Assembly: GCA_012518935.1 (NCBI GenBank)
Contig: JAAYRE010000119.1
Span: forward strand, 1 to 49,842
Direction: 5' to 3'
Length of the DNA stretch: 49,842 bases
Source of the DNA: Clostridiales bacterium
GTDB lineage: Bacteria > Bacillota > Clostridia > Lachnospirales > Lachnospiraceae
Shown here: piece by piece, positions 10,702 to 15,675 of the stretch
How the letters are laid out: every line of letters starts with the position of its first letter
Position numbering within the stretch: position 1 is the first letter of the stretch
Position numbers and translations under genes: made by a program
Notes under the pieces: generated by a model
What the model was told of the DNA's origin: nothing
The model's input: only the letters and a program-made list of their open reading frames with translations
The model's database searches: none

Positions 10702-11577
10702 TTAACGTAACAAGAGCATAGGATTTACAGTCTTTTCATCCTCCATTACCATAAAATACAGATTACTTCCTTCAATTGAATAGAATCTTGTAGGCTTATT
10801 AATTTCTCCAATTATTTCACCTTCTGCAAGTCTATCACCAATCTTATGATTTACATTTGCCAGTTGACCATATAGAAGTGAATAACCATCTCCAATGTCT
10901 GTTGTAACAGTAAGACCTGTAATAGGGTCTTCGTAAATATCTGTAATAATTCCATCTGTTGCTGATTTTACTTCTGTTCCAATCTCCGCTGCTATAATAA
11001 TTGCCGGGTTAATTTTATACTGCATGAGTGTAGCATGGTATACCAAATGATCTACGTTATAATTCATAATGACATTGCCATCCACTGGCCAAAGTAGCCC
11101 TTCATCAACTTGAAAGCTTAACTTCGGTAGATTCTTTACTGTTGCACCGGATGTTTCCACTGCCTGTGGTTTATCTACCACATTATGATTTGCTTCAACA
11201 GGCTTAGGATCTAATATCTCAGCAAGGTCAATCCCATTCTCTTCCTCTTCCGTATATACATCAAATTCTAGAAGACTGTCATTGTCAGCAACTTCCTGAC
11301 CGCCTTCAGGCCCATTGGTATCAGGGCTTGTCTGAGAGTCTGCCTCTTCCAATGCATTATCAATTTCAGCTTGCAGGTCATCATCTTCATCAGCTATCAT
11401 GTTATTATCTGGTTCATTTAGATCTACAAAATCCTCTGTATCATCTACCTTATTAGAGGATAAATTAGAGCCAATAAGCGCTACTGCAGCTATAGCGATA
11501 ATACCGACAAATAATAACACATAATAACCCTTACCTTTAAAAAACTCAACAAAACCATTCTTTTTCACTATTATCAC
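10702..11577 (-). CDS. M23/LytM-domain SpoIIQ-like protein
   Basis: N-terminal TM, linker, degenerate LytM fold (LLWPVDGNVIMNYN...GDRLAEGEIIGEI). Confidence 0.72.
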   Translation of the reverse strand: MIIVKKNGFVEFFKGKGYYVLLFVGIIAIAAVALIGSNLSSNKVDDTEDFVDLNEPDNNMIADEDDDLQAEIDNALEEADSQTSPDTNGPEGGQEVADNDSLLEFDVYTEEEENGIDLAEILDPKPVEANHNVVDKPQAVETSGATVKNLPKLSFQVDEGLLWPVDGNVIMNYNVDHLVYHATLMQYKINPAIIIAAEIGTEVKSATDGIITDIYEDPITGLTVTTDIGDGYSLLYGQLANVNHKIGDRLAEGEIIGEINKPTRFYSIEGSNLYFMVMEDEKTVNPMLLLR

Positions 11578-11760: not shown

Positions 11761-11831
11761 GCGGATATAGTTTAATGGCAGAACACGAGCTTCCCAAGCT
11801 TGCGATGCGGGTTCGATTCCCGTTATCCGCT
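11761..11831 (+). tRNA. tRNA-Gly (anticodon CCC)
   Basis: Cloverleaf: GCGGATA/TATCCGC acceptor, CGAGC-TTCCCAA-GCTTG anticodon arm, GCGGG-TTCGATT-CCCGT T arm. Confidence 0.95.
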
Positions 11832-11879
11832 GTATAAGAAAGAGGCAGGTGTTTTATCACCTGCCTCTTTCTTATACAG
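11831..11879 (+). terminator. Terminator-like perfect hairpin after tRNA-Gly
   Basis: TGTATAAGAAAGAGGCAGGTG-TTTTAT-CACCTGCCTCTTTCTTATACA. Confidence 0.6.
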
Positions 11880-11907
11880 CGAGTTAACCATAAAAATTGA
11901 AAACTTT

Positions 11908-12171
11908 AAGAAAAAGGTGCGAGTCCAATGGCGAGCATTTTTTTCTTGTCGAGCCAAACCGCTTCTCAGGTTTGGCTTTGAGATTCCCCGTTATCCGCTT
12001 ACATGAAAACAGAGGTCTGTGGCACCGTTAGGTGACAAAGACCTCTGTTTTTATGTAAGTAATAATATAAGTGATTCGGGAAGAATAAGATGCGAGCCCT
12101 CTGGTGAGCATCTTCCATTCTTCCTAAGCCTTGCCATGGGTTTGGGCATGGCTTTTTCCCGATTATCCGCT
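11908..12171 (+). repeat. Two degenerate structured units each ending in a copy of the tRNA-Gly 3' end
   Basis: TTATCCGCT at 11823-11831, 11991-11999 and 12163-12171 (spacing 168 and 172); hairpins with loop GAGyCCnnTGGyGA at 11908-11947 and ~12079-12124. Confidence 0.6.
12000..12059. terminator. Long terminator-like hairpin
   Basis: TTACATGAAAACAGAGGTCT...AGACCTCTGTTTTTATGTAA. Confidence 0.65.
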
Positions 12172-12254
12172 GCAATATCTAAGTTTTGAAAGAAAAAATT
12201 ATCAAACTCAATCCATTCTCCTTCAAAGCGTGTTCTCCACCTGTCAAGTTTAAA

Positions 12255-13091
12255 TCAATCACCAATCCAAAAATAAAGCAAACCCTTCTGTCCATCTTCA
12301 AATTCTATAAATAACTGACTAGCAGAATAAATCTCTAGAATTTTAACTGTAATCGATTCAAAATCCTTCATAGATTCCCATTCCCAGGATATATATTCAT
12401 GATAGTTTTTAGGAGCCTCCTCTAAGGGCACAAAGAAACCCGAACCGCTTAATTCATAGGTTTCTCCAATATATTGACTCACATCATGGTCCCTAGATAC
12501 AAATTCATTATCCACTAGCTCCTGCCAGGATGTATAAAACAGCGGTTTAAAATTTACCCCCATACTAAACCATGATATATATTTACCCCTTCCGTCCATT
12601 ATGGCACCGCTATCAATTTCACCTAAAGCTATTAGTTCTTCACCGTTATATCTGAATAATTTATAATGCGGGTCACCGCTGGGACCATCATCAAAGCAGG
12701 CTAACTCCAAGTAATTATCATTACTGTCTAGGTCAATAATCTTTAATTCACCTGTGGGATTATCTGTATAAAACTCTAATGTTTTATCATTAACCTCAAT
12801 GTAAGAATTAACACTTAATGAAGTCTTTATTTTATCGTTAATTCCATCTCCATTTAAATCATATTCACCTGATACCTCATAGCCATTATTACTAGATACT
12901 GCAAATTCATAGTCCTTAAAATAATCCCTTAGCCAAGAAAAATCCTTAATATCAGGATCTGCCCCCTTATCATTATTAGATGGATCAACTTGTGTTTCCT
13001 CTACCTCAGTATTGCCTTCTGTCGGAACGCAACCCACAAAAAGAAACGATAACACTATACAAATTATCAATATTCCACGTTTCATCTTCAT
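12255..13091 (-). CDS. Hypothetical lipoprotein
   Basis: MKMKRGILIICIVLSFLFVGC lipobox; low-complexity acidic linker; no family recognised. Confidence 0.75.
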   Translation of the reverse strand: MKMKRGILIICIVLSFLFVGCVPTEGNTEVEETQVDPSNNDKGADPDIKDFSWLRDYFKDYEFAVSSNNGYEVSGEYDLNGDGINDKIKTSLSVNSYIEVNDKTLEFYTDNPTGELKIIDLDSNDNYLELACFDDGPSGDPHYKLFRYNGEELIALGEIDSGAIMDGRGKYISWFSMGVNFKPLFYTSWQELVDNEFVSRDHDVSQYIGETYELSGSGFFVPLEEAPKNYHEYISWEWESMKDFESITVKILEIYSASQLFIEFEDGQKGLLYFWIGD

Positions 13092-13339
13092 ACTCAGCTC
13101 CCTTTTTAATCTCTTACAAATCTTATATATATAAGCCATTAACTATTGTTACCCCTCTCACTTCATCTTACACTCCTCCACAAACTCATCATATGTCCCC
13201 ATGGACCGAAAGTCAATTTTATATTCCTTATATCTTATTGAATGTTTTATCATATATTGTATAATGACCTTATAAACTTGTTTAAGGCTTAACTTTGCTT
13301 TACTTCCCTATATAGTAAATAACACACCCTGGAGGACAC

Positions 13340-14557
13340 ATGGAAAAGACATCAAGAAAATTAACAATTAAGTATGCTTTGTTACAAAGTACATATTGGA
13401 TAAGTCAATGTACAATTTATAGTTTTGCAGCTATATATCTACAATATAGGAATTTTAACAATACCCAGATTGGCATTGTACTTTCTTTGTCTGCAATCTT
13501 ATCAATTATACTTCAGCCAGTAGTATCTGCCTTTGCTGATAAGTCAAAGAAAAAAACCGTTCGAAATATTATACTGATATTATTACTTATTGCATTTGCT
13601 TCTGCCATATTACTTAACATTAAGGCCAATTCCTTATTATTTATTGGCTGTGTATTTGCCATCATCACTGCAATACAATTTACCATAAATCCACTGCTTA
13701 ATTCATATGCTTTAGAATATATAAATAAAGGATATCCTTTTAACTATGGTTTGGCTAGGGGAACTGGTTCCATAGCTTTTGCTATTACTTCCTTTTTCCT
13801 TGGCCACGGTGTAAGTAGGTTTAGTGGAGCCATCATAGTACCCTTCTTTCTTATTAGTTATGTCTTTCTATTCCTATCGGCCTCTTTCTTTAGATTAAAA
13901 GATACTGACAAAGAGGCTGCAAACCTCTCAAAAAATCATAGGATTGAAGATATTTCTGATGAAAATGAAAATCCTCCCTCTACAATACTGGGCTTTTTCA
14001 TAAAGTACAAAAGATTTACCCTGATGCTTGTAGGCATCACTATGCTTTTTTATGCCCATAGCCTTATTAACACCTACCTAATCAACATAATGGAAAATGT
14101 CGGCGGAGACAGTTCAGATATGGGGCTCTCCTTAACTATAGCTGCCGCCTTGGAGCTTCCCACCATGGCTGCTTTTGCTTATATTATTAAAAAGTTAAGG
14201 TGCCATACCATAATTAAGACAGCCTCCTTTTTCTTCCTTATGAAATCACTGTTTATATGGCTGGCTCCTAATGTTAATATTGTACACTTATCCCAAGCTT
14301 TTCAGATGCTTTCCTTTGCACTCTTTACTCCAGCTTCTGTCTATTATGTTAATTCTATTATTAATAAAGAAGACAGAAACAAAGGTCAGGCAATGATGGG
14401 AGTGGCAACAATTGGTCTATCAGGAACCATTGCATATATTACAGGTGGGAATTTACTTGATACTAGAGATCCTTCCTATATGCTACTTATGGGATTCATT
14501 GTGTCCATTGTAGGCTTTATAATAGTATGCTTCTCTACGGAAAAGTCAAAGATATAG
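13340..14557 (+). CDS. MFS transporter
   Basis: ~12 TM segments, RGTGSIAFAITSFFLG, TQIGIVLSLSAILSIILQPVVSAFADKSKKK. Confidence 0.88.
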   Translation: MEKTSRKLTIKYALLQSTYWISQCTIYSFAAIYLQYRNFNNTQIGIVLSLSAILSIILQPVVSAFADKSKKKTVRNIILILLLIAFASAILLNIKANSLLFIGCVFAIITAIQFTINPLLNSYALEYINKGYPFNYGLARGTGSIAFAITSFFLGHGVSRFSGAIIVPFFLISYVFLFLSASFFRLKDTDKEAANLSKNHRIEDISDENENPPSTILGFFIKYKRFTLMLVGITMLFYAHSLINTYLINIMENVGGDSSDMGLSLTIAAALELPTMAAFAYIIKKLRCHTIIKTASFFFLMKSLFIWLAPNVNIVHLSQAFQMLSFALFTPASVYYVNSIINKEDRNKGQAMMGVATIGLSGTIAYITGGNLLDTRDPSYMLLMGFIVSIVGFIIVCFSTEKSKI

Positions 14558-14576
14558 ACTTATTCCTTATGATATG

Positions 14577-14609
14577 CCCCCACTTCTTATAGAAGTGGGG
14601 TATTTTTAT
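14577..14609 (+). terminator. Intrinsic terminator
   Basis: CCCCACTTC-TTATA-GAAGTGGGG-TATTTTTAT. Confidence 0.85.
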
Positions 14610-14715
14610 ATCCTTTATGTCCTTTGCTATAATTCACAAAATTCCTTTAGCCTATCCATACATAAACAACCTGTTCTTAAATATAATATAACAACACCTA
14701 TCTTTGGGAGTAAAT

Positions 14716-15675
14716 ATGAAAAAACTTATATATAAGCTGTTGGCAGTAAGTGTTATAGTGCTGATATTACCTTTTATTCTTACCCTTATATTATCTAGTA
14801 ATAAAAAGGCTTATAATTCCTTAGAAGCCATGAACTTTAATATATATTATGAGAAGAATGGTGCTAAAGAAAAGCTTGACTTTGACCAATATTTAATTGG
14901 GGTTGTGGCAGCCAATATGCCTGCTGGTTATCATCTAGAAGCCCTTAAGGCTCAAGCTGTTCTATCTAGAACATATGCCTTATATAATGTTGCTCTTCTC
15001 TCTGAGGAAAATTCTCACAAATCTGACTATACCACTTCTGAGCTGGGACTATCTTATATTGACCCTGAGGAAATGGAGCAATATTGGGGTTCAGATAATT
15101 ATATCATGTATTTTACCAAGCTTGAGAATTCAGTCTTTGCTACTAAGGAAGAAGTCTTAACCTATAAAGATGATTTAATATTACCCGTGTTTTTTGGTAC
15201 TGGAACAGGCTATACCAGAAATTCCAGGGAAGCTTGGGGAGTAGATATCCCCTACCTTGTCAGTGTATCTAGCAAACAGGATGTAACCTCAATCCATTAT
15301 CTGCGAATCACTGAATATGATGTACGTGTCCTGGTTGGATTACTAAGGCAAGTTTATCCCTCCATAGATATTAGTGAAAAAACATTCTTTCAAGATATTA
15401 TAATAAGTAATCGGGACAGTGTAGGCTATGTAACAGAAATAGACCTTGGCAACCTCACCGTCTCTGGGGAAGAGTTTGCCAAGGTCTTGGGACTAAATTC
15501 AAATCATTTTTATATTGAAGATTATGAAGGTAAAGCTAGGATCATATGCACCGGTGTTGGCCATGGAGTAGGTTTAAGCCAATATGGCTCCAATGCCATG
15601 GCAGAGGATGGATACACTTATGATAAGATATTAACTCATTATTATACTGGGGCAAAGATTATTAATCTTGACTAG
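14716..15675 (+). CDS. SpoIID/LytB-domain protein (stage II sporulation protein D-like)
   Basis: MPAGYHLEALKAQAVLSRTYAL ... GVGHGVGLSQYGSNAMAEDGYTYDKILTHYYTGA. Confidence 0.92.
   Translation: MKKLIYKLLAVSVIVLILPFILTLILSSNKKAYNSLEAMNFNIYYEKNGAKEKLDFDQYLIGVVAANMPAGYHLEALKAQAVLSRTYALYNVALLSEENSHKSDYTTSELGLSYIDPEEMEQYWGSDNYIMYFTKLENSVFATKEEVLTYKDDLILPVFFGTGTGYTRNSREAWGVDIPYLVSVSSKQDVTSIHYLRITEYDVRVLVGLLRQVYPSIDISEKTFFQDIIISNRDSVGYVTEIDLGNLTVSGEEFAKVLGLNSNHFYIEDYEGKARIICTGVGHGVGLSQYGSNAMAEDGYTYDKILTHYYTGAKIINLD

Follow-up and report, generated by a model that had tools for sequence, protein, structure and literature searches.

Organization of the tRNA-Gly(CCC) locus

The locus lies within a window of 49,842 nucleotides, the whole stretch of clostridial DNA that was analysed. 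Its conserved left flank is a gene for a SpoIIQ-like M23 peptidase (10702-11577, minus strand; Pfam PF01551), which also adjoins tRNA-Gly(CCC) in relatives, a homologue being found at the tRNA in 15 loci. The tRNA-Gly(CCC) gene follows on the plus strand (11761-11831; ARAGORN and Rfam), with a 3' end that we take as a putative attachment (att) core, and directly 3' of it stands T1, a palindromic terminator-like hairpin without assigned strand (11828-11881; 24-nt arms, 100% complementary) that shares the last 4 nt of the tRNA. Two structured modules come next, both with their hairpins and core copies on the plus strand. Unit 2, a type B module (11880-11983; covariance model (CM) match of 44.2 bits at 11904-11992), has a degraded inverted copy of the tRNA tail at its left end, then hairpin 1 with a GA/GA internal loop (11908-11947; folding and arm pairing) and hairpin 2, AGCCAAACC/GGTTTGGCT (11952-11977; arm pairing). 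It is followed by a first displaced core copy, TTCCCCGTTATCCGCT (11984-11999), which repeats the tRNA tail, and by T2, a second palindromic terminator-like hairpin without assigned strand (11998-12059; 29-nt arms, 90%). Unit 3, a type A module (12072-12155), is supported by covariation and by a score of 106.9 bits with the CM R1, whose training set includes unit 3 itself. It consists of a closing arm, CGGGAA (12077-12082), hairpin 1 with a GA/GA internal loop (12080-12124; folding and covariation), and hairpin 2 (12133-12152) followed by a terminator-like TTTTT; the second core copy, TTCCCGATTATCCGCT, a type-A variant of the tail, lies behind it (12156-12171). A variable interval without recombinase gene (12172-14703, no strand assigned) then carries a putative lipoprotein gene (12255-13139, minus strand) and an MFS transporter gene (13340-14557, plus strand), and ends at the conserved right flank, SpoIID (14704-15675, plus strand; PF08486). 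Elsewhere in the window, Rfam identified a c-di-AMP riboswitch (ydaO/yuaA leader; 190-321, 85.8 bits).

An earlier, sequence-only reading of this locus had noted that TTATCCGCT, the end of the tRNA, recurs downstream, and we confirmed it at 11823-11831, 11991-11999, and 12163-12171. The repeat is longer than first noted, 16 nt (ATTCCCGTTATCCGCT, TTCCCCGTTATCCGCT, and TTCCCGATTATCCGCT), at steps of 168 and 172 nt. A search for CCCGTTATCCGCT with at most 2 mismatches returned 3 sites in the window vs 0.29 expected, so that recurrence by chance is not expected. The hairpins proposed for both units were borne out, folding better than shuffled sequence (z of -2.9 to -4.3), and the long terminator-like hairpins proposed after the first two tails correspond to the palindromes T1 and T2. 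The 14-nt loop described for hairpin 1 needed revision: it is not open, having a 3-bp inner stem inside, and the tandem G.A pairing suspected at its flanks stood, with GA on both sides forming a tandem G.A internal loop. More specifically, inner stem and GA/GA loop sit within a much longer outer stem. The extra tails had also been thought to lack a matching 5' acceptor strand, which is true only in part: in unit 3, CGGGAA pairs with TTCCCG, and in unit 2 the arm is degraded in the window (AGCGAGTTAAC). In a relative (L051), a module of the unit-2 type starts with an intact GCGGATAAC that is exactly complementary to the tail GTTATCCGC. The two units are not copies of one unit: one is of type B and the other of type A.

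By ARAGORN and Rfam, units 2 and 3 are not tRNAs, the sole call being at 11761-11831. Only the tRNA was matched at the locus at Rfam gathering thresholds; up to an E-value of 10, the RtT family (RF00391) was not matched, and only the tRNA and the c-di-AMP riboswitch were credible in the window. Weak Rfam matches to miRNA families were rejected as reflecting the palindrome. No sigma-70-like promoter was found directly upstream of the window units.

A covarying family of structured units

Type A units follow the plan CGGGAAGAATAAAA - hairpin 1 - CTTTTATTCTTCC - hairpin 2 - TTTTTCCCGATTATCCGC and keep their own tail variant, CCCGATTATCC, across species. Type B units follow the plan AACCATAAAAATTG.AAACTGCAAGAAAAA - hairpin 1 - hairpin 2 - CCCGTTATCCG, often with an additional hairpin between hairpin 2 and the final CCCGTTATCCG.

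The covariation first seen between the two window units was kept when more sequences were added. An alignment of 20 units made from sequence only was scored at 18 base pairs of the two hairpins. Of these pairs, 11 had changed on both sides (double compensatory changes), paired cells reached 88.4% vs 77.1% in shuffles, and the covariation score was 0.360 vs 0.168 in shuffles; when partners were slid by 1-3 columns, pairing fell to 31-57%. Hairpin 2 is the most variable, with double changes in 9 of its 10 pairs, and the 3-bp inner stem of hairpin 1, with GA on both sides, shows them in 2 of 3. The closing stem, which pairs the inverted core with the core, is conserved with zero compensatory changes, as expected if another constraint fixes the core. 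In the stems, G.U outnumbers A.C (31 vs 8 in an RNA-model-fitted alignment of related sequences, a count that is indicative only), suggesting that the tRNA-sense strand is probably the one that folds.

The distribution of the units was followed in relatives, which are mostly fragmented metagenome-assembled genomes (MAGs) with several contigs ending at the tRNA. With the 411-bp locus as query against 40 relatives, the tRNA and units were found in many congeners, so that further genomic copies do exist. The CM R1, built from seven type-A units, gave a match at E up to 1, a rough value, in 21 of 34 congeneric genomes, many of them weak. Strong matches adjoin tRNA-Gly(CCC) or sit on short contigs whose end sequences are the same, the exceptions being G044 (3.5 kb from the tRNA) and contig G010:C112. 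Units in G003 and G006 stand away from the tRNA, behind cargo, in G043 two or three units stand in tandem at ~113 bp spacing, and L045 and L046 are decayed units.

Among 299 sampled genomes of the family, searched with stricter filters, an R1 match at E 0.01 occurred only in the window's own genome, and the other genera sampled within the family gave no strong match. Among 392 genomes of the order, the only additional credible unit match was in G027, beside its own tRNA-Gly. A match in G374 proved by eye to be an ordinary GC-rich terminator, and one in a Verrucomicrobia MAG (L130) a chance match missing the hairpin context. Units were absent from the phage records and viral contigs searched. 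In summary, the units are a real, covarying, and locus-specific family, almost confined to this genus.

As a separate observation, genome G004 carries about 12 dispersed intergenic repeats (L093-L104; for example C28:155657-155749) with a similar two-hairpin plan and a GA...GA inner stem, without the tRNA tail. Several of them directly abut the stop codon of an opposite-strand gene. These repeats are REP-like, and possibly cousins of the units.

An insertion hotspot with displaced cores and terminators

We measured the distance from the tRNA to spoIID on single contigs of eight congeneric genomes. It ranges from 2.9 to 66.6 kb between conserved flanks: 2.9 kb in the window, 7.7 kb in G007, 8.3 kb in G019, 9.3 kb in G023, 24.1 kb in G003, 29.0 kb in G013, 49.9 kb in G006, and 66.6 kb in G004. 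Relatives hold blocks of 6-12 kb of foreign genes at the position of the window units; sugar-uptake and glycosidase genes are among the contents in G004 and G047, and other, unrelated genes in G003 and G006. The tRNA-to-spoIID interval is thus an insertion hotspot. No PF00589 tyrosine recombinase was found in seven of these intervals (all except that of G019) and no PF00239 serine recombinase in all eight, and integrases do occur elsewhere in these genomes, outside the intervals. At G013:C2:40830-43276 we observed three adjacent tyrosine recombinase genes in the same orientation. A ~350-aa candidate for an integrase acting in trans, common to nine genomes, was set aside as not specific; being 74-86% identical between species, it is probably a chromosomal Xer-type core recombinase.

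Two sets of terminators record successive states of the site. In G043, the intact tRNA is immediately followed by a terminator with 56/62 identity to window T2. In the window itself, T2 comes after a core copy that lies behind T1 and unit B (the 168-bp unit), and in G003 the T2 terminator (59/63) comes after a core copy that 11.7 kb of cargo separates from the tRNA. The presence of T2 in these three site states indicates that the tails are displaced att cores. In the second set, the tRNA of G002 is followed by a different terminator, GCATCAG/CTGATGC, with neither unit nor core copy, and in G004 (40/54) and G047 (45/51) the distal end of the cargo has a perfect copy of the 20-bp core with a related terminator behind it. 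A tRNA-tail repeat at the far border and an unoccupied site in a relative are therefore both present (G002 empty, G004 and G047 occupied), and in both sets a new terminator stands at the tRNA of each occupied site, the older one having been pushed away. This pattern, as read from sequence comparison, matches what would be predicted for site-specific integration at a tRNA 3' end.

The core found at the borders of cargo is exactly the plain 20-bp tail of the tRNA and not its type-A variant. At cargo far ends in several genomes we also observed a conserved right end module, TGGCGACCATGTCCTTGnCATCTGnCAAGCAT...CATGTaTTCG, just before the core copy (L041, L051, L052, L088, L120, L121, and L039), which was not detected in the plasmids or viral contigs searched. 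The exact 20-bp core, TTCGATTCCCGTTATCCGCT, is present in five viral contigs without a tRNA gene. Four of these contigs have an integrase-like gene no more than ~200 nt from the core (three Pfam-confirmed), and in several a terminator-like hairpin directly follows the core. The viral contigs L150-L153 show repeated GCAACACG or GTGACACGA motifs around the core, possible arm sites.

Units as putative end modules of integrating elements

It seems fairly likely that the units are structured modules at the ends of integrase-less elements that use a tRNA-Gly att site, and that they probably work as folded RNA insulators. Since foreign-gene blocks occupy the same spot in relatives, the modules look like structured scars or end-pieces of these insertions and not like broken tRNAs. 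The att scars proposed by the sequence-only reading are supported for the tails by the displaced cores, the replaced terminators, the hotspot, and the phage attP-like 20-bp core. The 3' end of tRNA-Gly(CCC) would serve as attachment core of site-specifically integrating elements, each bringing a new tRNA 3' end and its own terminator T and shifting the old tail and old terminator downstream, and the extra tails of the window would be such displaced cores. The element end beside the tRNA would be made of T, the inverted core, hairpin 1 with its GA/GA loop, hairpin 2, and a core copy. As T1, unit B, and core occupy the position of the 11.7-kb cargo of G003, they may be a cargo-less remnant or a minimal insertion. 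Integration may be carried out by a recombinase acting in trans. The units would be transcribed, with folding of the tRNA-sense strand, and their most likely job would be insulation, hairpins and terminators blocking read-through from the strong tRNA promoter. The inverted arm could in addition sequester the extra tail, which would then not compete with the tRNA's own acceptor stem. Several observations count against this overall reading, namely a GA/GA motif conserved beyond the needs of a pure terminator or insulator, cargo intervals without integrase or serine recombinase, the absence of units from the phages and viral contigs searched, a closing stem conserved without compensatory change, and the lack of a detectable sigma-70-like promoter directly upstream of the window units. 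The fragmented state of most relatives and the RNA-model-fitted alignment behind the wobble count also weigh on it.

Other readings draw on the same evidence. The tRNA-tail-associated small RNA proposed by the sequence-only reading may apply to the hairpins, a real, covarying, and locus-specific family. The units may be rtT-type small RNAs that are made with or beside the tRNA transcript, that tRNA processing sets free, and that act in trans or on tRNA metabolism, the tails being part of the RNA. The E. coli tyrT/rttR locus has the same anatomy (178-bp repeats, tRNA-Tyr tail, and inverted arm GGGGAAGGAT), RtT is reported in PMC4986893 (citing Bosl and Kersten 1991) as an RNA released from the tyrT transcript, and covariation with a wobble bias to the tRNA-sense strand would suit an RNA. 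However, terminator-like palindromes stand between tRNA and units, no sigma-70-like promoter was found upstream of the window units, the Rfam RtT model stays unmatched even at E 10, and the units of G003 and G006 lie behind cargo, and we consider this reading doubtful. Simple decay of the tRNA 3' end and its terminator, or their tandem duplication, without mobility and with fortuitous hairpins, is a highly improbable origin of the locus: recurring tails and terminators and the decayed units L045 and L046 would be accounted for, but covariation and the occupied and unoccupied sites contradict it, as do the hotspot, the cargo blocks found at this very site, and modules that are conserved across species and keep a tail variant of their own. 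The related suggestion of a decayed tRNA-terminator duplication in the sequence-only reading was likewise not supported, as there is no shared tRNA body in the units and compensatory changes mark their evolution.

The order of inverted core, hairpins, and core, the metabolic-gene cargo without recombinase, and the tandem arrays at ~113 bp would also suit single-strand recombination sites resembling attC, in which core and inverted core form a duplex att site and the cargo consists of cassettes captured at tRNA-Gly by a trans-acting integrase. We judge this unlikely, given that cargo borders use the plain 20-bp tail and not the type-A variant, that no integron integrase was identified in the intervals, that the closing stem does not covary, and that the core is by inspection unlike the attC GTTRRRY box. 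A proposal of integron-like capture at tRNA-Gly, in which a trans recombinase moves integrase-less metabolic blocks into and out of the tRNA tail and the units are folded sites replacing attC, appears to us quite improbable; if true, E. coli rtT would be a leftover of such a module.

Comparison with known systems

Integration at tRNA 3' ends is known biology. ICEPni2 integrates in tRNA-Gly(CCC), with two tail copies ~6 kb apart, and the portion of PMC7466150 that describes it mentions no structured units; tRNA-Gly-targeting ICEs and phages share with our locus 3'-end integration and a tail copy of 18-20 bp at the opposite border, and the viral contigs L150-L153 share the same core adjoining an integrase-like gene. 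Unlike these elements, the cargo blocks here are without integrase, and no structured units were found in the viral contigs. Tycheposons are tRNA-flanked cargo islands with metabolic genes (PMC10872708); those described carry their own tyrosine recombinase, whereas none was found in the intervals here. Integron attC cassettes are similar as gene blocks edged by imperfect palindromic sites and as arrays, but here the insertion point is a tRNA tail, no attC core boxes are seen by eye, and no IntI was identified in the intervals.

The closest anatomical analogue of the units is E. coli rtT/rttR, a comparison of plan. At the E. coli tyrT locus (L149), the tail recurs after tyrV at 178-nt steps, and ahead of its hairpins each rtT repeat carries GGGGAAGGAT, in which 10 nt of the tRNA tail stand inverted; both systems are thus post-tRNA repeats of ~170-180 bp with inverted tail, hairpins, and tail copy. 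Likeness to dispersed repeats is another common point, between rtT sequences and BIME repeats (PMC2965389) on the one side and between the units here and the dispersed repeats of G004 on the other. The differences are the tRNA (tRNA-Tyr vs tRNA-Gly), the phylum, the lack of a sequence or covariance-model match, and the fact that our locus is an insertion hotspot with cargo. To our knowledge, the E. coli rtT repeats have no clear origin.

Rfam does not contain the covarying family of structured modules found at such a site in this genus, and the connection of this family with the anatomy of rtT is, as far as checked, new. An independent, clostridial case with the same plan at a tRNA hotspot suggests that rtT-like repeats may be structured by-products or end modules of tRNA-site integration, an origin that now becomes testable, and it points to a hotspot for the entry of metabolic cargo, lacking its own recombinase, into a tRNA gene.
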